Assembly: GCA_903916735.1 (NCBI GenBank)
Contig: CAIWXX010000111.1
Coordinates: forward strand, 1 to 51,885
Reading direction: 5' to 3'
Length of the DNA: 51,885 nucleotides
Source of the DNA: an uncultured Acidobacteriota bacterium
GTDB lineage: Bacteria; Acidobacteriota; CAIWXX01
In this document: in pieces, positions 719-35,445 of the stretch
Position numbering within the stretch: the stretch's first letter is position 1
How the letters are laid out: every line of letters starts with the position of its first letter
Notes under the pieces: model-generated
What the model saw: only the letters and a program-made list of their open reading frames with translations
The model's database searches: none
What the model was told of the DNA's origin: nothing
Translations under genes and position numbers: made by a program

Positions 719-2795
719 TGTTGCTTCCTCCATTCCGGCCGGCCAGGATTCCAAGAGGCACCTCGATGAAAACCGGCCGCTTCGTATTCGACGTCACCTT
801 CTGCAGCGGAATGCCTTCCTGGCGGAAAATACCCTTGATGATCGTCTCACACGTTTTGCTCCCACATGCACCCATCCCGGCGCGCGTGATAGCCTTGATC
901 TGATTGATATCCGTGATGCCTTTCCTGACAAGAGCTCTGACATCGCCGACACTCACGCGTTCGCACAAACAGAGCTTCGCCGAGTCCGCATCCTGATCGG
1001 GGATGATCGCTTTCGGCAAAGGCCGGCTCACCGATTCATCCTGAATGCGGAATGAGACCACGCGCTTGGCCTGATCTTTGGGGACTCGGATTCTGACAAG
1101 CTGGGTTTTGTTCTTTTTATTATCGACGACACCGGTCACTTCCATTTCGCCGATCAGATCCCCGTTGATGTCGACAGCCTTGACCTTCTCACCTTTCTTG
1201 ACGCGGTAGTTGAAAACTTCGTATGGCACCGTGACTTCCGGGAATTCCTTATTCTTCCTGAAATCGACTAGCGTGATGGCCAGTCCCGGGCAGATCGAGA
1301 CGCACTTGAGGCAGCCGGTGCAGCTGCCGCTATAATCGGGTAGTCCCATCAGGGGGTCGCCGCAGATAGTGATCGATTTGGTGGGGCAGACCGTGATGCA
1401 TGGATTGCAGGGGATTTCCTGGAGGCAGTGGATCAGCGGCATGACTCCCTCCTCGCCCGCCGGGAACTTCTGTTCAGAAATCGGCCCTGGATGCGACTTG
1501 AGAATTTCCGCCTTTGCATGCCAGCTTTCGGGAATCTCGGCGACATCAGCACCGAGTTCTTTGGCGATCGTCAGGCCCGCGATCTTCCCGTTGAACATCG
1601 CCGAAGAGGCTTCGGCAATTTCCAGTGCATCGCCTGCGGCGAAGATTGGGATTCCAGCTCCCTGTGCTTCCTGTGTGAACTCATCAATCGAGTTCAAGCC
1701 GACGGCAATCAAAATAGTGTCGCACGCAAACGATTTTTCAGTCCCTGCAATCGGCACGAAGTTGCGATCGACCTGAGCGATCGTCACCGATTCCACCCTG
1801 TCCTTGCCATTGGCTGAGAGAACGGTATGCGACGTGTAGATCGGGACGCCGAGTCTCTTCAGCTTATCGGCATGCACCTTATAGCCGCCGCACACGGGGA
1901 GAGCTTCGGCGAGGCCGACGACACCGATGCCCGCCTGCAGGGCATGATAGCCGGCGATTAATCCGACGTTGCCGCCGCCGACGATAAAGAGCTTTGTTGA
2001 TGGACGGATGAGATCGCGGTTGGCGAGAGTCTGAAAGGCGCCGGCGCCGTAAATTCCAACCAGGCTGTTACCGGCGAAGCTCAGGAATTTCTCACGTGCT
2101 CCGGCGGCATTGAGGATGACTCTGGGAACCACGAGCTTATACGTTCCATCCTTGAGGATCCCGACCTTCTTATCCTTGAAGATGAAAATGGCCGTGCTAT
2201 TCAGCCAGACGGTGATGTGAGGATTCGTGGTGACGGTTTCAGCGAGCATTCGGCCGATCTGATTGCCGCGCGTGCCGGCTTGCGAATCTTCGACGGAACC
2301 GAAGAATTTGTGAGTCTGCAGCACGAGCTTGCCGCCAAGCTCGTTCTTGTCATCGATGACCAGAGTCCTGATCCCCTTCTGCCCGAGCTCAATGGCCGCA
2401 GACGCCCCAGCAGGTCCTCCCCCAATGATCAGGACATCGGTATGGGTTTCTTCGATGTCTATCAGCGCAGGCACCTCGTTGATGGGCGGCAACACAGGTA
2501 AGCCGTCGACACTTTCCACAAACATGTTCTCCCGCACGGCCGTCATGCACGATTTCACCGGCACACCATTGGCAATCACCATGCACTTTGAACACTGGCC
2601 ATTGGCGCAGAAAATTCCTTGCGCCGTGTCATCTCGATGATGGCGGCCAAAGGCCATGACTCCATTGGCGATGAGCGCCGATGAGATCATTTCGTTCGCT
2701 TTGGCTGAAAGAGGGCTCTTATTCCAGTAAAATCGAATATCCTCCCTTTCTTCCACCGGGAGAATCGGGTGCTCACTGATTCGGTTATTCTCCAT
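711..2795 (-). CDS. Multi-cofactor FAD/Fe-S oxidoreductase, alpha subunit of an HcnAB/OoxA/proline-dehydrogenase-like complex
   Basis: This 694-residue protein combines four redox modules. An N-terminal [2Fe-2S] domain has Cys63, 68, 71 and 83. A two-dinucleotide-binding disulfide-reductase-like core has GGGPAG near 125 and VGGGNVG near 272. A two-[4Fe-4S] ferredoxin insert has Cys463/466/470 and Cys492/495/498/502. A C-terminal BFD-like [2Fe-2S] domain has Cys609, 611, 644 and 649. In known complexes (HCN synthase, opine oxidase, hydroxyproline and dye-linked proline dehydrogenases) the HcnA-like and HcnB-like parts are often separate chains; here they are fused and carry the extra ferredoxin. 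The likely role is to pass electrons from the beta subunit to a carrier. An AAGGAG site precedes the ATG. The gene overlaps the downstream beta-subunit start. Confidence 0.88.
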   Translation of the reverse strand: MENNRISEHPILPVEEREDIRFYWNKSPLSAKANEMISSALIANGVMAFGRHHRDDTAQGIFCANGQCSKCMVIANGVPVKSCMTAVRENMFVESVDGLPVLPPINEVPALIDIEETHTDVLIIGGGPAGASAAIELGQKGIRTLVIDDKNELGGKLVLQTHKFFGSVEDSQAGTRGNQIGRMLAETVTTNPHITVWLNSTAIFIFKDKKVGILKDGTYKLVVPRVILNAAGAREKFLSFAGNSLVGIYGAGAFQTLANRDLIRPSTKLFIVGGGNVGLIAGYHALQAGIGVVGLAEALPVCGGYKVHADKLKRLGVPIYTSHTVLSANGKDRVESVTIAQVDRNFVPIAGTEKSFACDTILIAVGLNSIDEFTQEAQGAGIPIFAAGDALEIAEASSAMFNGKIAGLTIAKELGADVAEIPESWHAKAEILKSHPGPISEQKFPAGEEGVMPLIHCLQEIPCNPCITVCPTKSITICGDPLMGLPDYSGSCTGCLKCVSICPGLAITLVDFRKNKEFPEVTVPYEVFNYRVKKGEKVKAVDINGDLIGEMEVTGVVDNKKNKTQLVRIRVPKDQAKRVVSFRIQDESVSRPLPKAIIPDQDADSAKLCLCERVSVGDVRALVRKGITDINQIKAITRAGMGACGSKTCETIIKGIFRQEGIPLQKVTSNTKRPVFIEVPLGILAGRNGGSNNG

Positions 2796-2853
2796 GTCGA
2801 CTCCTTACAGGGCCCTGATTGTCATTCATCTGCTTCCAGTCAATAGACCTCTG

Positions 2854-2882
2854 ATATATCACAGAGCAGCCCATCGGGTCAA
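2854..2882 (-). promoter_or_regulatory. Candidate sigma70 promoter of the oxidoreductase operon
   Basis: On the minus strand TTGACC (2877-2882) is followed after 17 bases by ATATAT (2854-2859), some 60 bases before the ATG at 2795. The -35 matches five of six consensus bases; the -10 is weaker. Confidence 0.45.
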
Positions 2883-2911
2883 TGCTTTGTAAAAAAAATA
2901 ACATAAAATCC

Positions 2912-2956
2912 TTGACAAAATCATATATGAGTCTTAAATTTGACAAAAATGTCAAA
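2912..2956 (+). promoter_or_regulatory. Promoter and dyad operator candidate of the double Lrp regulator
   Basis: TTGACA (2912-2917) is followed by TTAAAT (2934-2939) with a 16-base spacer, resembling a sigma70 promoter. The TTGACAAAA string recurs at 2940, where it forms an interrupted palindrome, TTGACAAAAATGTCAA (2940-2955), with arms TTGACA/TGTCAA. The dyad overlaps the expected transcription start and the candidate start codons. This layout suits autorepression by the adjacent Lrp-type protein, which is inference. Confidence 0.45.
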
Positions 2957-4004
2957 AATGATCCGAAGAAAAGATCGTTCCAAAGATCCTCGGCCAGACC
3001 AATCCGGAGCTCGACGAGTCAGCCCTCCAGCGGCCTCATCGGCAAAACTCGGCCTTTCCATCAAAGACAAGGCCATCCTGGCTGAACTGGGACTGAAGGC
3101 CCGACAGAACCTGACGGAGCTGGCCCGCAAAGTCCGGCTGTCGAAACAGGTGGTGAGCTACCGCATCAAGCAGCTTGAAAAGATGAACATCATCCGCGGC
3201 TACCACGCCATCCCGGACATCTACCGACTCGGAAAAACTCACTTCCGGGTTTTCGTCAAGTACCAGCAGCTCAATCGTGAAAACGAAGCGCGACTCGTAA
3301 AGGAACTGGTTCGCTGCCCTGAGATCTCATGGTTGACTCTGCTGGATGGGGATTTTGATCTTGAATTCGTGATCTGGTCCGACCATATCATGAAATTTGA
3401 AAAGATATATGACGAGATTCTCGGGCGATTCGGCAGATATTTTCAAGAAAAATACTTTTCCATCGCCACTCGCGTCGAATACCTTCCTTTCCGATTTTTA
3501 AATCCCGGCCATGGCAATGGCGAAGGGCTTGTTTTCGGCGCGGGTCATGATCAGCTACCGTTGGATGATATCGACAAGAATATCCTTCACGAAACCAATC
3601 GCAACGGCCGAATTTCTCTGGCGGATCTCGCAAAAAAGCTGGGCATCTCTGTCACCATCGCCAAAGGCCGGCTTCAACATCTTATCGAAACCCGGGTCAT
3701 CATCGGGTTCGGCATGAAAATCGATCATCACCGCCTGGGGCTCACCTACCGCAAGGTCCTGCTGAAACTGAACACTCCAGCTCGAGACAGGATTGACCGG
3801 ATCGCCGATTATCTTCGCCGGCAGGATAGCGTCATCTTCCTGGTAAAGACGATCGGCGCGTATGATTTTGAATTTGAGCTTCTGACAGAATCGAACGAGG
3901 AGTTTTACCACCTCATCAAGTCCTTCCGGTCGCACTTTGCTGCCGACATCAAGTTCCACAGCACGGTTATCGTTTACGATGAATTGAAATACGGCCAACT
4001 CTAA
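2949..4004 (+). CDS. Double-length Lrp/AsnC-type transcriptional regulator (HTH-RAM-HTH-RAM)
   Basis: About 351 residues contain two successive Lrp-like units. The first winged HTH lies near residues 38-90 (NLTELARKVRLSKQVVSYRI) with a RAM-like ligand domain to about 185. The second HTH lies near 205-255 (RISLADLAKKLGISVTIAKG) with another RAM-like domain to the end. Ordinary Lrp/AsnC proteins have one unit of about 150-160 residues; tandem forms are better known from archaea and a minority of bacteria. An upstream in-frame TTG at 2940 and a second ATG at 2958 are alternatives, and no strong ribosome-binding site decides between them. It diverges from the oxidoreductase operon and probably controls it in response to an amino acid. 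Confidence 0.85.
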   Translation: MSKMIRRKDRSKDPRPDQSGARRVSPPAASSAKLGLSIKDKAILAELGLKARQNLTELARKVRLSKQVVSYRIKQLEKMNIIRGYHAIPDIYRLGKTHFRVFVKYQQLNRENEARLVKELVRCPEISWLTLLDGDFDLEFVIWSDHIMKFEKIYDEILGRFGRYFQEKYFSIATRVEYLPFRFLNPGHGNGEGLVFGAGHDQLPLDDIDKNILHETNRNGRISLADLAKKLGISVTIAKGRLQHLIETRVIIGFGMKIDHHRLGLTYRKVLLKLNTPARDRIDRIADYLRRQDSVIFLVKTIGAYDFEFELLTESNEEFYHLIKSFRSHFAADIKFHSTVIVYDELKYGQL

Positions 4005-6476: not shown

Positions 6477-7865
6477 GTGGAGAAATCGAGTCACACAGAA
6501 CAGATGATAATAGGCGGCCGGTCTCAGCCGATGAGTGTCCTTAGAGTTTTCAACTTTTGGATGCCGCTTGCCGCTACATGGCTGATGATGTCGGTGGAAG
6601 GCCCCTTTGTGGCGGCGATCATCGCACGGATTCATGATCCCATGTTCAACCTCGCTGCCTACGGTGTGGCCTTCTCATTTGCGCTGATTGTGGAAGCTCC
6701 CATCATCATGATGATGAGCGCATCGACGGCGTTGGTCGCGGATCGCAGCTCGTTTTTCCAACTGAGGAGATTCGCATACACGCTGAACATGATCATTACG
6801 GGTCTAATGGTGCTTCTGTTAACTCCACCGATTTTTTCACTCATCGCAGAACGACTGATCGGGCTTCCTCATGGCATCGTCCTCCTGACCCACAGAGCCA
6901 CAATGATTCTGCTGCCGTGGCCGGCGGCGATCGGCTATCGACGTTTCTATCAGGGAATTCTTATCAGGAATAACCTCACCCGCCGCGTCGCCTACGGCAC
7001 CATCGTTCGGGTTGTCACCATGGGACTGACGGCGACGGCCTTCTTTTTCTTCGTAAACATCCCTGGGGCCTATATTGGAGCGGCGGCGCTATCAATGGGA
7101 GTGACAATGGAGGCCATAGCGAGCCGATGGATGGCCCGGCACATCGTCAGACAAATTATCGGGGATCGTTCAGAGTGCTCAGCGTCAACACTCCTGACGA
7201 CGCGGGCACTCATCCACTTTTACTATCCGTTGGCCCTGACATCACTCCTCACCGTCGGAGTCAATCCGCTTGTGACATTTTTTCTGGGTCGCAGCCCGTA
7301 TCCACTCGAATCGTTGGCCATCTGGCCGGTCGTGCACTCTTTCGTTTTCGCCTTCCGAAGCGGCGGAGTCGCCTATCAGGAGGTCGGAATCGCACTGCTC
7401 GGAGAAGACGGCCAGGGCTTCCGCCCACTCAAGAGTTTTGCAGGAATCCTCGCCGCTATCACGAGCGGGGCTCTGACGATCGTTGCCTTCAGTTCGCTCG
7501 CTTCAGGCTGGTTCCATGCGATCTCCGGGCTTCCCCAGGCGCTGACATCTTTCGCCATCATTCCGTTGCGGTGTTTGGTCGCCATGCCGGCGCTGGAAGT
7601 GCTGCTCTCCTTCCAGCGATCACTGCTCGTTCAAACACGCCGCACGCCTCTCATCACATGGGCGACAACCATTGAAGTGAGCGGCATCGCCATCATGCTC
7701 GCAATCGGCATCGGCCTGATCAGCCTGCCCGGCGCTCTGGCGGCTGCCATCAGCATTGTCGTCGGCCGAGTATGCGCCAACGGGTTTCTTATCGGCCGAT
7801 GCCCACGATTCGCTGATCACTCAGAAGAAACATCAACGATCTCGGCGAACAGCCTTTGTAAATAA
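6477..7865 (+). CDS. Multidrug/oligosaccharidyl-lipid/polysaccharide (MOP)-type or ANKH-like membrane transporter
   Basis: The product of about 462 residues is almost entirely hydrophobic, with roughly twelve membrane segments in two halves. The first starts VFNFWMPLAATWLMMSVEGP, as in MATE and ANKH-like members of the MOP superfamily. The second half begins near the IHFYYPLALTSLLTVGVNPL segment, which echoes the first, as expected of an internal duplication. Such proteins export drugs, lipid-linked glycans or small anions; the cargo cannot be told here. The start is uncertain: GTG 6477, ATG 6504 and ATG 6531 are in frame, none with a strong binding site. It is divergently paired with the SAM methyltransferase across about 130 bases. 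Confidence 0.65.
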   Translation: MEKSSHTEQMIIGGRSQPMSVLRVFNFWMPLAATWLMMSVEGPFVAAIIARIHDPMFNLAAYGVAFSFALIVEAPIIMMMSASTALVADRSSFFQLRRFAYTLNMIITGLMVLLLTPPIFSLIAERLIGLPHGIVLLTHRATMILLPWPAAIGYRRFYQGILIRNNLTRRVAYGTIVRVVTMGLTATAFFFFVNIPGAYIGAAALSMGVTMEAIASRWMARHIVRQIIGDRSECSASTLLTTRALIHFYYPLALTSLLTVGVNPLVTFFLGRSPYPLESLAIWPVVHSFVFAFRSGGVAYQEVGIALLGEDGQGFRPLKSFAGILAAITSGALTIVAFSSLASGWFHAISGLPQALTSFAIIPLRCLVAMPALEVLLSFQRSLLVQTRRTPLITWATTIEVSGIAIMLAIGIGLISLPGALAAAISIVVGRVCANGFLIGRCPRFADHSEETSTISANSLCK

Positions 7866-28904: not shown

Positions 28905-30347
28905 CTATGACAACCGCACGGCCTGCTTCGCTTGGGCGAAGAGCTTCCTCTGGAGCCGCGCCTGTTCCAGCAGGAGTCTTTTGCCATCGATGATGCGACA
29001 GCCGGCTTTGCGGCCTGCGCGCACAAAATCCGTATCCCCATCGCCATAAGGGAAATCGATGATGATATGGCCGGAGAATAATCGTGACCCCGGATAAGGC
29101 AGCCCTCTCCAGCCTGCATGACCGATCGGAGTGGCGTTGATGATTACCCCGGCATCGGCCTGGATGCGCCGATTCCACGGTATGAATTCGACGCCTATTT
29201 CCTGCGCCACATTCCGCCTTTCTAACCGCCTCGCCGTCATCACGACATCAGCGCCGTGCTGCCTTAAAGCGCGACACACGGCTATTGCGGTGCCCCCAGC
29301 GCCGATGATCAAGACACGGCCTCGGTACACGATTCCCGATGTCGTCCTCCTGATCCTGAATGCAGGATTTCCACCCGTCTCATTGAGCAGGTGAATCAGA
29401 GCTCGAATATCAGTGTTATAGCCTATGAGCTTCCGGCCATGCGCAATGACGGTGTTGACGGACCCGGCGAGTCGTGCCGACGGCGCCAGGCGATCAACGC
29501 GCCGTGCCATCTCCAACTTGAACGGCGCCGTCACACTCCAGCCGGCCATCGGCAACGAAAGCGACAGAGCGAGGAAATCATCAATACCCTTCGTATCAAA
29601 CGGCAGATAAACACACGGCTCACGCCGCCGCTTAAACCAGCCATTGTGCAGCCGCGGGGAGAGGCTGTGGGAGATGCCTGTGCCCAGCAGTCCAAAGACA
29701 CGCGGTCGCCGGCCGAGATCGGGGACTCGATAGAGATGAAGCATCTCATCCAGAGTCGGTTGTCCAGGGGCAGTCGGCGAGTCGGCGGCCGCGGCGCAAT
29801 ACGTCAAGAAATTGCCGGCGGACTCAGAGAGCACCCTCGTGCAAAGACTGAACGGTCCCATGGCCATCAAGGCAATTTTTTTTCGCGGCGCACGATCGAA
29901 CGTCAGAATTCGCAGGGCATCCGCATAACGATGTGGTGTCACGGCGAGCTTCACCACTTCCCCGCGCCGATCCTGGAGAGCCCCAATGAGTCCTGCCAGA
30001 TCAGACGGCATGCCGGTCATGTCATGATAGGACCTGATAATTCCTTTTCCAGAACCTGCTTCATCGTCATCAACATCCATTTCGAGATCAATGAATCCGG
30101 CACCGGCAGCTCTGGCTCGTCGCAACAGCCCGAGGCGAACAGCTTCATTCCCCGAGAATTCCCCGCCATCCGACTTCCGCCGGCACGTAAAGATCAGCCG
30201 GTCCACCGCATTTTGGCAAAAAGGCTCGGGGGATGGATCATCGAGCCGATCAAGACGAATTTCAACGAAATGCGCTTGAGGCGGCAGACGCCGTAATACA
30301 CGAAGCGCATCCACAGGATCACGTAATCCAATGCTGGCGCAGAGCAT
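28905..30347 (-). CDS. aroDE: Bifunctional 3-dehydroquinate dehydratase (type I) / shikimate dehydrogenase
   Basis: This 480-residue fusion catalyses two consecutive steps to shikimate. The type I dehydratase (about 1-210) shows Glu29 in VEIRLDRL, the catalytic His108 in RSYHDMTG and the Schiff-base Lys133 in VVKLAVTP. The dehydrogenase (about 215-480) shows SHSLSP, Lys277 in SVTAPFKLEM, Asp313 in YNTDIRAL and the NADP-binding GAGGTA near 349. The dehydratase half is slightly short. This fusion is standard in plants and occurs in Chlamydiae, Planctomycetes and some others; most bacteria use separate genes. No neighbouring aro genes are present. Confidence 0.92.
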   Translation of the reverse strand: MLCASIGLRDPVDALRVLRRLPPQAHFVEIRLDRLDDPSPEPFCQNAVDRLIFTCRRKSDGGEFSGNEAVRLGLLRRARAAGAGFIDLEMDVDDDEAGSGKGIIRSYHDMTGMPSDLAGLIGALQDRRGEVVKLAVTPHRYADALRILTFDRAPRKKIALMAMGPFSLCTRVLSESAGNFLTYCAAAADSPTAPGQPTLDEMLHLYRVPDLGRRPRVFGLLGTGISHSLSPRLHNGWFKRRREPCVYLPFDTKGIDDFLALSLSLPMAGWSVTAPFKLEMARRVDRLAPSARLAGSVNTVIAHGRKLIGYNTDIRALIHLLNETGGNPAFRIRRTTSGIVYRGRVLIIGAGGTAIAVCRALRQHGADVVMTARRLERRNVAQEIGVEFIPWNRRIQADAGVIINATPIGHAGWRGLPYPGSRLFSGHIIIDFPYGDGDTDFVRAGRKAGCRIIDGKRLLLEQARLQRKLFAQAKQAVRLS

Positions 30348-30559: not shown

Positions 30560-31804
30560 CTACCGGTGCCATCGAGGCGCAACCGGCAGAAAGATGGAAA
30601 ACGAGGCGCCCGCCTGCGGATTGGATTCGACAGAAATCCACCCGGCGTGATCCCGCACAATGTTGGCGCTGACAGAAAGGCCAAGCCCTGTGCCTCGCCC
30701 GGCAGGCTTCGTTGTAAAAAAGGGTTCGAATATGCGGCTGATATGCTCCGGCGAAATTCCGCAGCCATTGTCGATGAAATCAATCACGACATAGCCACGG
30801 CGATTGATGGGAGTGCGAATTTGCTTCGGAGCCTTCGCATGGGCCTCCCGAATGTCCTCGGGGCGGCTCATCAACCTTGTCCGCACGCGGAGAGTTGGTG
30901 ATTGCTTTCCGTCGAGGGCATCCCGCGCGTTCAGAATCAGGTTCAGGAAGACCTGCTCGATTTGCGTCCGGTTAGCCATTACCCCGGTGAGCTTGTCCGC
31001 TAATTCGAAGATGACGGCGATGCCTCGTTTTGCGAGTTGCTGATGAACAAAGGCTAATGCATCATGCACAGTTCGGTTGATATCGACAACGGTTCGTTCA
31101 TCCTGCCCTCGACGCGAAAAATCCATGAGATGATCGATGATTTTCGACATCTTCCCGCTCTGCAGGAGAACGGTTTCCAGATCCGTATTGCACGATTCGT
31201 TGTGATGTTTTTCCAGAAGCATCATCTGGGTTGTTCCACGAATCACGGCAAGCGGCTGGTTCAATTCATGAGCGACACTCGCAGCCAACGTGCCGATCGC
31301 TGCAAGCTTGGCACTCTGGATGAGGTGGGATTCCTTCTGCTTCAAATCCTGACGAGCCTTTTGGAGCTCTTCACTTCGGCGCGCGAGCTCGCATTCGAGA
31401 TCGTATTTCCGGAACACGGATGTCACTCGGGAAAGCAGTTCAATACCATCAACCGGCTTGATCAGATAATCATCAAAATTCACATCGATGGCCTTAACCA
31501 GGATCGGTCGAAGATTGATGTTGACGGCAATAATGATGGGCAGTGACGGGCCGGCGCTTTCCTTCCTGAAAGACTCCAGTATCGGCATCCCTTTCGAAGC
31601 AGCGACATCCATATCCAGAATCACCATATCGCAGCCACCCGCCGAGACTCGCTCAAGCGCATCGGGGATTGCCGTCACCGAATCAGCCTGATAGCCGTTT
31701 TGAGCAAGAATAGACCGCCACTCACGAGCGACATCATCATCGCTCTCAACGACCAGTATCCGTCTGTTGTTCTTCGTCTCCACGAATTTCTCGCCCGCGC
31801 ACAT
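30560..31804 (-). CDS. Receiver-histidine kinase fusion (REC-HisKA-HATPase)
   Basis: The ATG at 31804 gives 414 residues. An N-terminal receiver (RRILVVESDDDVAREWRSIL, Asp64 in VILDMD, Lys in YLIKPVDG) is followed by a coiled coil (about 133-165). A kinase core follows, with His179 in SVAHELNQPLAVIRG and ATP-binding motifs NLILNARDAL, DNGCGI and GRGTGLGLSV. With no membrane segment or PAS, the receiver is the only input, so this kinase probably sits inside a phosphorelay. The start is uncertain: GTG 31783 is a plausible alternative, since the ATG lacks a clear binding site. The HTH-receiver gene upstream on the same strand could be a partner, although a repeat and a strong hairpin lie between. 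Confidence 0.88.
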   Translation of the reverse strand: MCAGEKFVETKNNRRILVVESDDDVAREWRSILAQNGYQADSVTAIPDALERVSAGGCDMVILDMDVAASKGMPILESFRKESAGPSLPIIIAVNINLRPILVKAIDVNFDDYLIKPVDGIELLSRVTSVFRKYDLECELARRSEELQKARQDLKQKESHLIQSAKLAAIGTLAASVAHELNQPLAVIRGTTQMMLLEKHHNESCNTDLETVLLQSGKMSKIIDHLMDFSRRGQDERTVVDINRTVHDALAFVHQQLAKRGIAVIFELADKLTGVMANRTQIEQVFLNLILNARDALDGKQSPTLRVRTRLMSRPEDIREAHAKAPKQIRTPINRRGYVVIDFIDNGCGISPEHISRIFEPFFTTKPAGRGTGLGLSVSANIVRDHAGWISVESNPQAGASFSIFLPVAPRWHR

Positions 31805-31919
31805 TCTGCGCGCCTGCCACCACCGGCCACATAACTTTACAATGAGTATACAATATCCAATAGGGTAAAGACTATATTCGGATTCAGGCCTTCGAAACCA
31901 GGTCAAAGTCGGTAATAAT

Positions 31920-32200: not shown

Positions 32201-32226
32201 GTGCGATCCAGCAAGCTGGATCGCAC
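32201..32226 (-). terminator. Perfect 11-bp stem-loop after the HTH-receiver gene
   Basis: GTGCGATCCAG (32201-32211) and CTGGATCGCAC (32216-32226) are exact complements with a CAAG loop, 12 bases beyond the stop at 32238. There is no U tract, so it may act as a 3'-end stabiliser or Rho-linked terminator rather than a classical one. Confidence 0.5.
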
Positions 32227-32237
32227 CCATAGAGAAG

Positions 32238-32804
32238 CTACAGTCTGGAAGAAACTCGGATGGCGTTGTTCACAGCGGTTACAACTTCATTGATATCAGT
32301 GAGAGGTTTCTGCAGATAAGCGGCACATTGGAGGTTCACAGCATCGATTGCTGTCTCCATCGAAGGAAATCCTGTGAGAACGATGGCTTGGATGTCGGGA
32401 TGGAGCTTCCGCGCTTCCTCGACCAGCTCAATCCCAGTGATGCCGGGCATTTTCAAATCGGTGAAAAGCACATGGTAGTAATTGCGTTGGAGCATTTCCA
32501 GGGCGCCTTCACCATCCGCAGCGACTTCGATTTCGTAGCCGGCGCGTGACAAAGCTCGCGATATCAAATTGCGGACATCTTCTTCGTCATCGACGACAAG
32601 GATTTTCCGTTTTTGGATTTGGGGCTTGAGTGCCACGACTCTATGATCGTCCAGCCAAGCATCGATGTCCTTTTTGCGGAAGCGCCATTCACGGCCGATC
32701 TTAATCGCAGGAATTTTCTTATTCTTGATGAACCCATAGATAGTTCTAAGGTCAAGATTAAGGTACTTGACGAGGTCCTCAGTCGTCATCAATCTGTCCA
32801 GCAT
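32238..32804 (-). CDS. Excisionase-type HTH fused to a receiver domain
   Basis: The 188-residue protein starts at ATG 32804 after AGGAGG. Residues 5-55 are an excisionase/MerR-like HTH (TTEDLVKYLNLDLRTIYGFI, IPAIKIGREWRFRKKDIDAW), the small DNA-binding domain usual in Xis proteins. Residues about 66-188 are a receiver: VDDEED near 71-76, phospho-acceptor Asp116 in FTDLKMPG, Thr in VLTGF and Lys in YLQKPL. Response regulators normally place the receiver first and use OmpR-, LuxR- or Fis-type outputs, so this order and this DNA-binding domain are atypical. It should be a phosphorylation-controlled DNA-binding protein. A REC-kinase is encoded downstream. Confidence 0.9.
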   Translation of the reverse strand: MLDRLMTTEDLVKYLNLDLRTIYGFIKNKKIPAIKIGREWRFRKKDIDAWLDDHRVVALKPQIQKRKILVVDDEEDVRNLISRALSRAGYEIEVAADGEGALEMLQRNYYHVLFTDLKMPGITGIELVEEARKLHPDIQAIVLTGFPSMETAIDAVNLQCAAYLQKPLTDINEVVTAVNNAIRVSSRL

Positions 32805-33618
32805 ATTCCTCCTAAATGTTTTTCCCCAGAAATGGGAAATTATTGATAAATAAGATAAATGGAATAGTAGTGCACCCCATTCTCTCTTTTATTCCGGATT
32901 CAAACGGTTCTATATTCATGAACAATAGCAGAATTTATTAAATGTTAAAGTCATCTTCGGCTATCTCCGGTTAAACCGTACCATCTCCCCCCTCGAAAAA
33001 CCATGTTATCATAAACAGCATCACAGATGGTAGACACAAAAATTCCCCTTGTTTCAGGATTCGCCATCATCAGCTCGGGTATCGACGAAACAAACCAAAT
33101 GGTCTATGTCCACAATTTCTTCGATGAATATGCGCCATAGAGGCATCAGATAATTTAGGCGGAACCTCATCTCTATGGATTGTTGCGGGATTGATATTGC
33201 GGAGCAGTTTCACTGAGATAGAAAAAATGGGCATTGCATGTCATACAAAACACATTTATCCGATTCGAAGGCGGGAGGAGCGCTCCCGGCACAGATCGTC
33301 AAAGTGAGCGCAGGAAACCAAGGCTTATCGAGCCCAGGTGAAACTCGCTGCCTGTCGAATGCGTATCCATGAAGAGGGTATGATAATGTCAATTTCGCGG
33401 CGACCTGACCGAAGAACATACCATCAGACTGTTTCAGTTCAATTTGCACAACCTTTGTCGATGTCAAGATCGATGTCATGACGGAAGATCTTCGCGGTTC
33501 TCACCTCTATTTACGTCAATATGCACAACGGTGAAATATCGAGCATTGCTGCTGGATTGCGGTCTCAGCCATTGTTTTGCCTTGAACCGATTGTCAGTGT
33601 GATGTTTAATAGGTCCGA
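32805..33618. other. Long intergenic region, no gene recognised
   Basis: Some 810 bases, AT-richer than the surroundings, separate two divergent genes. TTTCCC/GGGAAA (about 32822-32839) could form a small stem in the HTH-receiver leader. A 89-codon minus-strand frame at 33210-33479 has no ribosome-binding site or protein-like pattern. Confidence 0.35.
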
Positions 33619-33642: not shown

Positions 33643-35445
33643 ATGGAGGCAGTTTTGAAGAGTGCGTTATGCTGGATCATTGTAGTGATTCTTTTTACGG
33701 CCGCCGTTAACGGCGATGAAATCATGCCGTTGGGCGAAGTGAAGAGAGGGATGACGGGTATCGGCCGTACCGTTTTCAAAGGGACGGAGATCGAGGAATT
33801 CAAGGTTGAAATACTTGGAGTAATACAGAGCGGCGGTCCGCGCCAGAACATGATACTCGCGAAACTGAGCGGGGGCCCGCTTGAAAAAACCGGGGTCATA
33901 CAGGGAATGAGCGGCAGTCCTGTGTATGTCGGGAACCGGCTCATCGGCGCCGTCAGCAGTTCCTTCCCCTTTTCTACCGAAGCCATTGCGGGCATTACTC
34001 CGATTGAAGAAATGATATCGACCACATCGTCGAACTCACCAACTCCGGCGGCATCGACTCAAACATCCGCGGCGCCGATCGCCGGGATTAAAAAAATGCT
34101 GACGTTTGAAGAACTGGGGGCGGCATTCAGGAGACCGGCCGAGGCAGGTTCGTCGGCTCTCACGTATGTGCAGACTCCGGTGGCCATTTCAGGCCTGAAC
34201 CAGGCGACAATCGACGCGTTTATGCCGATCTTCAGAAGCTGCAATGTCACTCCGATCGCCGGCGGCAATACGAACGGCACGTTCGAGAAGGCGATCAATC
34301 AGAGCCTCGAGCCGCTCAAGCCAGGCTCCGCAATTTCGGTACAGCTCATTCGTGGTGATATGGAATTCTCTTACATTGGAACTGTCACCTACATCGACAA
34401 AGACCGCGTCTATGCATTCGGGCATCCTGTCTTCAATATGGGACCGACCCAGTTTCCAATGGCACAAGCGGAAGTGATTGCGCTTCTGCCCAACTTGAAC
34501 TCTTCCTTCAAGATCGCTTCCACAACCACCGTCGTGGGTACGATCGAACAGGATCGATCCTCTGCGATCGCCGGGCGGATCGGGACTCGAGCCCGCATGA
34601 TCCCGATGAATATTCGCATCGAGACAAGCATGAACTCGAAGGAGCAGTATCGTTTTGAGATCGTCTCGGACAAGAACCTGACGCACATTCTGGCCCTGAT
34701 GGCAACCCTCTCAGCGATCACTTCTCGCGAACGTGCTCTCGGTCAGAACACACTCCGAATGTCGGCATCCATCAATCTCGACACCGGCACCCCGGTGATC
34801 GTCAGCGATCTGTTCGCCGGTGATAACACAGCGAATGGAGTAGCCTACACGCTCGCCACGGCGCTTTACTATATCCTCAATAATCCTTACAAGACCGTCA
34901 CGGTCAACAGCATCGATATGGAGGTGCATGCCGAGGAAACGCAGAAGAGCGCTCGCCTGGACCGGATCGATTTTGACAGGACCGCGTATCGACCCGGGCG
35001 CACGGTCAAGATGAAGGTTCACCTGCGTGGCTTGAACGACGAACCCATTGTGGAAGAGGCGTCATTCGAGATGCCTAAGAGCGCCAAGCCAGGGGAATTG
35101 ATTCTGTATATCGGCGATGGCCAGACTCTCACTTCCCTCGAATCATCCGATCTCCAAGGCGGGGATCTGTACCCACAAACCTACAGCCAGCTCATCCGGA
35201 CTCTCAACAATCAACGGCGAAACAACCACATCTATTTCCGCCTGCTCGACCGCCGACCCGGGCTTGTCATGAGAGGCGAAGATATGAGCGATCTCCCGCC
35301 TTCGGCGGCATCGATCATCACATCTCGCGGCAACACCCTCAGCTCCCGGCGGATGTACCTTTCACCGATTTTCGATGCAGAGCTGCCGACCGACTACTCT
35401 ATCGACGGATACCGGCTGCTTCAGATCAAGATCCAGGATTTTTAA
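33643..35445 (+). CDS. Secreted SpoIVB-type (S55) peptidase domain protein
   Basis: The 600-residue protein has an N-terminal signal (LCWIIVVILFTAAVNG). The next 75 residues match the S55 region: LGEVKRGMTGIGRTVFKGTE and VIQGMSGSPVYVGNRLIGAV, with the presumed nucleophile in GMSGSP (Ser92). A Ser/Thr/Pro-rich linker (about 127-150) follows, then YIDKDRVYAFGHPVFNMGPT, where His261 is a candidate catalytic His. The C-terminal 200 residues look like beta-sandwich folds. In B. subtilis SpoIVB the His precedes the Ser, so the order here is reversed. No sporulation genes are nearby. A secreted beta-propeller gene follows after 28 bases and is probably co-transcribed. Confidence 0.8.
   Translation: MEAVLKSALCWIIVVILFTAAVNGDEIMPLGEVKRGMTGIGRTVFKGTEIEEFKVEILGVIQSGGPRQNMILAKLSGGPLEKTGVIQGMSGSPVYVGNRLIGAVSSSFPFSTEAIAGITPIEEMISTTSSNSPTPAASTQTSAAPIAGIKKMLTFEELGAAFRRPAEAGSSALTYVQTPVAISGLNQATIDAFMPIFRSCNVTPIAGGNTNGTFEKAINQSLEPLKPGSAISVQLIRGDMEFSYIGTVTYIDKDRVYAFGHPVFNMGPTQFPMAQAEVIALLPNLNSSFKIASTTTVVGTIEQDRSSAIAGRIGTRARMIPMNIRIETSMNSKEQYRFEIVSDKNLTHILALMATLSAITSRERALGQNTLRMSASINLDTGTPVIVSDLFAGDNTANGVAYTLATALYYILNNPYKTVTVNSIDMEVHAEETQKSARLDRIDFDRTAYRPGRTVKMKVHLRGLNDEPIVEEASFEMPKSAKPGELILYIGDGQTLTSLESSDLQGGDLYPQTYSQLIRTLNNQRRNNHIYFRLLDRRPGLVMRGEDMSDLPPSAASIITSRGNTLSSRRMYLSPIFDAELPTDYSIDGYRLLQIKIQDF

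Follow-up and report, generated by a model that had tools for sequence, protein, structure and literature searches.

Response regulators normally carry their receiver in front and use few output families. At 32238–32804 of the window analysed here, a 51,885-nucleotide stretch of DNA from an uncultured Acidobacteriota bacterium, an earlier note had read the reverse order, with an excisionase-type helix-turn-helix (HTH) domain placed before a receiver (REC). Is this protein, hereafter HTH17-REC, a two-component regulator, an excisionase or an accidental fusion? The gene and its parts are as follows.

32238–32804, minus strand: coding sequence of the HTH17-REC response regulator, 188 aa (ATG start, Pfam, orthologues)
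32643–32792, minus strand: HTH_17 domain, a BldC/Xis/MerR-like winged HTH (wHTH), residues 5–54 (Pfam; fold search, BldC 6ama best)
32604–32642, minus strand: flexible inter-domain linker, residues 55–67, variable in length and sequence in the alignment
32271–32603, minus strand: receiver domain, residues 68–178 (Pfam; fold search, CheY-like receivers)
32457–32459, minus strand: codon of the phospho-acceptor Asp116
32808–32813, minus strand: AGGAGG ribosome-binding site, just 5' of the ATG

Pfam searches confirmed that the HTH precedes the receiver. HTH_17 (PF12728, E=3.9e-16) matched residues 5–54 and Response_reg (PF00072, E=6.8e-25) matched residues 68–178, both above the gathering score; the scan gave no further convincing domain and nothing C-terminal of REC. 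HTH_17 was the sole output domain found, in agreement with the claim that the output is not of the OmpR, NarL or NtrC kind. The receiver fold and catalytic residues are as in OmpR/PhoB, NarL/FixJ and NtrC regulators, whereas the order of those classes, REC first and then a winged-helix, LuxR-type or AAA+ output, is not seen in HTH17-REC. The catalytic set, which had been described as complete, is indeed intact (D72, D73 and E74, D116, T144, K166), and the protein has the fold, acidic pair, phospho-Asp, Thr/Ser and Lys of a response-regulator receiver. An AlphaFold model built from a nine-member alignment displayed two well-predicted domains (mean pLDDT 84) joined by a disordered linker at residues 56–64 (pLDDT <50). 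A sigma-70 promoter scan of the minus strand near 32805 returned no candidate.

Judged by its sequence conservation, HTH17-REC is a real family and no chance or frameshift fusion. The orthologue in a sister genus (an Acidobacteria bacterium MAG, L001) is 81% identical. When 396 genomes of the phylum were searched with a profile, 34 matched at E ≤ 1e-42, each with a single copy; most of these matches cover the whole profile and two cover part only. Among 30 aligned members the HTH core is conserved in all, D72, D73 and D116 are invariant (30/30), and 29 members retain T144 and K166. All 29 fusion receivers tested fell into one clade (support 95/91) when 79 receivers were placed in a tree, with 49 other receivers apart from it; the alignment has 117 columns, and many of the other forks are not resolved. 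The fusion therefore looks ancestral in the phylum, and a single ancient event would be the simplest reading of the tree.

Outside the phylum, full-length proteins of this order were almost absent from the genomes searched. Samples from other phyla, in which about 7–25 candidates were scored per genome so that the results are lower bounds, contained no full-length protein that passed the thresholds applied: 299 genomes from the phylum of Herbaspirillum (L024), 198 from that of Thermodesulfovibrionales (L003) and 132 from that of Zixiibacteriota (L011). A distant protein with both domains was found in Candidatus Tritonobacter (L105, 1498–2118); its receiver lies outside the clade on a long branch and may thus mark an independent fusion. 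Plasmid tblastn matches with at least 80% query coverage were not counted: three that were examined (H1, H3, H20) lie inside long 'response regulator' proteins, and other listed matches are annotated sensor kinases. In the openly accessible literature we found no characterised example of an HTH_17/excisionase head on a bacterial receiver or of an HTH-first bacterial regulator. The domain order is therefore uncommon, and no characterisation of it was found in the papers searched.

Neither domain is new, archaea already offer the HTH-first order, and an automatic annotation would pick up both domains. The archaeal regulator FilR1 binds promoter DNA better once its kinase has phosphorylated it (PMC3991700), and LtrR, whose architecture is described in PMC5847659, accepts phosphate from LtrK (PMC4823666). 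Like HTH17-REC, these proteins place a wHTH in front of a C-terminal receiver, and phosphotransfer has been demonstrated for the archaeal pair; unlike it, they are archaeal and use another HTH family (ArsR-related in FilR1, with DUF1724 in between). An excisionase/BldC-type head before a bacterial receiver is thus a rare, uncharacterised variant of the familiar two-component regulator.

The earlier assignment of the DNA-binding module to the Xis/MerR type was borne out by the HTH_17 match and by the fold, which is nearest to BldC, RdfS and Xis. For the isolated HTH model (pLDDT 89), the nearest solved structure was the BldC–DNA complex 6ama (E 0.02, probability 1.00, TM 0.72, 24% identity), followed by HiNmlR, the RdfS excisionase, Pukovnik Xis and RacA. 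A query of 56 residues can be expected to give weak E-values, and the best was 0.02; the probabilities are 1.00 and the TM scores 0.7–0.8. A sequence search of the HTH alone against the PDB found no relative, all matches coming from the fold search, and its PHROG matches are excisionases (phrog_66, E=2.7e-10). BldC/Xis-like DNA binding by the modelled head is supported at the fold and sequence level.

BldC of Streptomyces binds 9-bp direct repeats head-to-tail through a MerR-like wHTH that stands alone and is a monomer off DNA; the hydrophobic packing between its subunits is absent from classical MerR proteins, which are charged or polar at the Leu43 position (PMC5859096). HTH17-REC shares the fold and has hydrophobic residues at the packing positions (L15, L17, F25 and I36), which are L, V/L, L/F and V/I in the 30 members. 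These positions were matched through the BldC sequence, in which the residue numbers fit those given in the BldC study. The head is non-polar at the Leu43 position (Ile36) with a hydrophobic head-to-tail core, and a receiver replaces the coiled coil; both features set it apart from classical MerR proteins. It differs from BldC, a lone 68-aa wHTH without a receiver, in that the base-contacting Arg30 is Gly24 in the window and L001, although it is Arg in the other 28 of 30 members. The loss of this recognition-helix Arg makes DNA affinity less certain in the window lineage, where binding specificity has probably shifted alongside the changed neighbourhood.

The same head also invites the reading that HTH17-REC serves a mobile element, as a true excisionase (recombination directionality factor) or an architectural protein, and that its receiver gates excision. 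The protein belongs to HTH_17, has the wHTH of the Xis/RdfS-type excisionases (8dgl, 4j2n) among its top fold matches and resembles phrog_66. However, the annotated genes between 24.9 and 41.0 kb are core chromosomal (S5, L18, Sua5, EAL-HDOD, aroDE, SpoIVB-type peptidase, MetH-MTHFR) with no integrase among them, gene order is partly preserved in the sister genus, and each genome holds a single, vertically clustering copy. Unlike Xis/RdfS-type excisionases, the protein is fused to a receiver and, among the annotated genes, lacks linkage to an integrase or mobile element; HTH_17 is also frequent in plain transcription factors. We therefore consider it very improbable that HTH17-REC is a mobile-element excisionase; with core chromosomal genes as all its annotated neighbours, the 'excisionase' label is no guide to its function.

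If the protein is a response regulator, which kinase serves it? The earlier note had placed a REC-first histidine kinase beside the gene, and such a kinase is indeed next on the same strand.

30560–31804, minus strand: histidine kinase REC-HisKA-HATPase, probable partner (Pfam; equivalent at 6739–8001 in L001; the frame is also open from a TTG further upstream, at 31906)
31424–31759, minus strand: N-terminal receiver of the kinase (alignment; E-S as acidic pair, Val in place of Thr, Asp and Lys conserved)

The linkage is kept in L001, which shares the gene order HTH17-REC, REC-first histidine kinase and aroDE; the regulator–kinase gap is 433 bp in the window versus about 172 bp in L001. Kinase adjacency was observed in both genomes of the window's family (L001 being the only other genome of this family and class in the comparison) and in 8 of the 28 relatives. 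Pfam recognised no sensor domain (no PAS/GAF) and no HPt domain in the kinase.

We consider it likely that HTH17-REC is an inverted-order two-component regulator, in which signal would pass from the kinase to Asp116, alter receiver pairing and thereby alter promoter binding by the HTH. The kinase is soluble and REC-first; since no sensor domain was recognised in it, it is probably driven by other proteins, and it would phosphorylate Asp116 of the C-terminal receiver. Phosphorylation would change receiver pairing, which in turn would alter the affinity or cooperativity of the N-terminal BldC/Xis-like wHTH on promoter DNA. The receiver would then serve as a phospho-controlled dimerisation module behind an otherwise monomeric DNA-binding domain. 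The domains, the catalytic residues, single-copy conservation in about 30 genomes, the kinase/ECF linkage and the BldC/Xis-like predicted fold support this mechanism. What we infer within it is the phosphotransfer from the adjoining kinase, how phosphorylation acts, which DNA is bound and in which direction the regulation goes.

A gene pair with two receivers and a REC-first kinase lacking a sensor domain could also form a phosphorelay, in which phosphate would travel via the kinase REC and/or the regulator receiver would chiefly be a sink for phosphate or a feedback brake on the kinase, DNA binding being secondary. Consistently, the kinase REC is intact in L001. In the window, however, it has lost Mg- and Thr-site residues (S at the second acidic position, V at the Thr position); moreover, the kinase lacks a detectable HPt domain, and the conserved HTH core also argues against a secondary role for DNA binding. 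We regard a phosphorelay as unlikely. Going by these substitutions, which the earlier note had not mentioned, the window kinase's receiver is partly degenerate and on its way to a pseudo-receiver, and with this decay the signalling input may have changed.

The search for genomic neighbours proposed in the earlier note, which gave kinase and aroDE in L001, yielded a different setting in 28 other genomes of the phylum. An ABC-F ATPase gene (two ABC domains, ABC_tran_Xtn and a C-terminal domain) lies downstream in 26 of them, and the upstream gene is a divergent ECF sigma factor in 20 and a same-strand GAF/PAS histidine kinase in the remaining 8. The ABC-F orthologue of the window genome (69% identity) lies on a different contig, where no neighbouring HTH_17 regulator was seen. 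With the kinase adjacent and ABC-F elsewhere, the window's class has kept its kinase neighbour, and a link to ABC-F was either lost or never present.

These neighbourhoods bear on whether the receiver is phosphorylated at all. A phosphorylation-independent pseudo-responder, its receiver mainly a protein–protein adaptor (in most lineages for the adjacent ABC-F or ECF protein), would fit the 20 relatives that have an ECF sigma gene and no adjacent kinase, the frequent ABC-F gene next door and the degenerate receiver of the window kinase itself. Against it, the Asp residues are invariant and Thr and Lys are retained in 29 of the 30 members, which points to purifying selection for phosphorylation chemistry. 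Furthermore, orphan regulators are usually phosphorylated by unlinked kinases. We thus hold the adaptor reading to be unlikely and favour the phosphorylated two-component regulator.

What DNA would this regulator bind? By analogy of fold, the head may bind direct repeats, and the earlier note had suggested a direct-repeat or AT-rich target. Upstream of the regulator and kinase genes in two genera, however, direct repeats did not exceed chance, 127–192 of 200 shuffles being equally good in the four regions; the target may lie elsewhere. Inspection by eye showed two ATTTATC copies at the promoter with a 9-bp spacing, which did not exceed chance either, and no promoter element conserved between the window genus and the L001 genus was found. 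The suggested link to a repeat family also failed, as no repeat family specific to the locus was detected.

The perfect hairpin reported beside the gene is real, with arms of 12 nt.

32201–32226, no strand assigned: perfect 12-nt inverted repeat/RNA hairpin with 2 nt between the arms, directly after the stop codon in the regulator–kinase gap, no T-run

This hairpin (RNA z −3.0) is the sole copy in the genome and was rejected as a dispersed repeat. It was also rejected as a classical intrinsic terminator, since it has no T-run and is absent from the terminator scan. The regulator–kinase gap of L001 (6568–6738) holds a very stable hairpin of about 20 bp (z −3.8) at the same place, with unrelated sequence. 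Conservation of position and not of sequence speaks less for an operator than for an RNA element that sets regulator-to-kinase expression by protecting the 3' end, by processing or by terminating part of the transcripts.

A more specific form of the favoured mechanism is a phosphorylation-gated, BldC-like nucleoprotein filament, in which receiver dimerisation would switch head-to-tail wHTH polymerisation on direct repeats. HTH17-REC proteins would then form a class of response regulators that bind DNA in a way of their own, which became fixed a single time in the phylum and perhaps arose anew in Tritonobacter; we put this forward as a tentative and somewhat doubtful extension. A conserved bacterial family with a BldC-like head in front would test the addition of phospho-control to DNA-binding domains that oligomerise on direct repeats. 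It would also give a working assignment for a set of proteins so far annotated by domain only, and the conserved ABC-F, ECF sigma and kinase neighbourhoods offer concrete regulon candidates.

Several further observations were made in these loci. In L077–L104 (28 loci), the relatives sit in a tight block with the ABC-F gene and the ECF sigma or GAF/PAS kinase gene. By eye, the region upstream of the regulator in L080–L104 contains a conserved element, the reverse complement of about GACTTTC-N13-CGTCTTA, which resembles a promoter through which the divergent ECF sigma gene would regulate itself. L088, L096 and L099 have a second HTH_17-like coding stretch shortly downstream of the HTH17-REC gene. 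In the window, 28905–30347 encodes a fused type I 3-dehydroquinase and shikimate dehydrogenase (aroD-aroE), also fused in L001; 39188–41035 encodes a fused homocysteine S-methyltransferase and methylenetetrahydrofolate reductase (MetH-MTHFR); and 33643–35445, divergent from the regulator, encodes a protein with an S55 peptidase domain of the SpoIVB type; sporulation is not known for this genome.

Matches of the Desulfobacterota type were rejected as fusions, the genes being split in L123 and L124 (phylum of L006, Desulfuromonadales). There, HTH_17 is encoded by a gene of its own that stops a few bases short of an in-frame REC-HisKA-HATPase gene; this is an independent link of the HTH_17 type with two-component receivers. 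These gene pairs lie around 1450–3250, and the L123 kinase also has a C-terminal GGDEF-like stretch.
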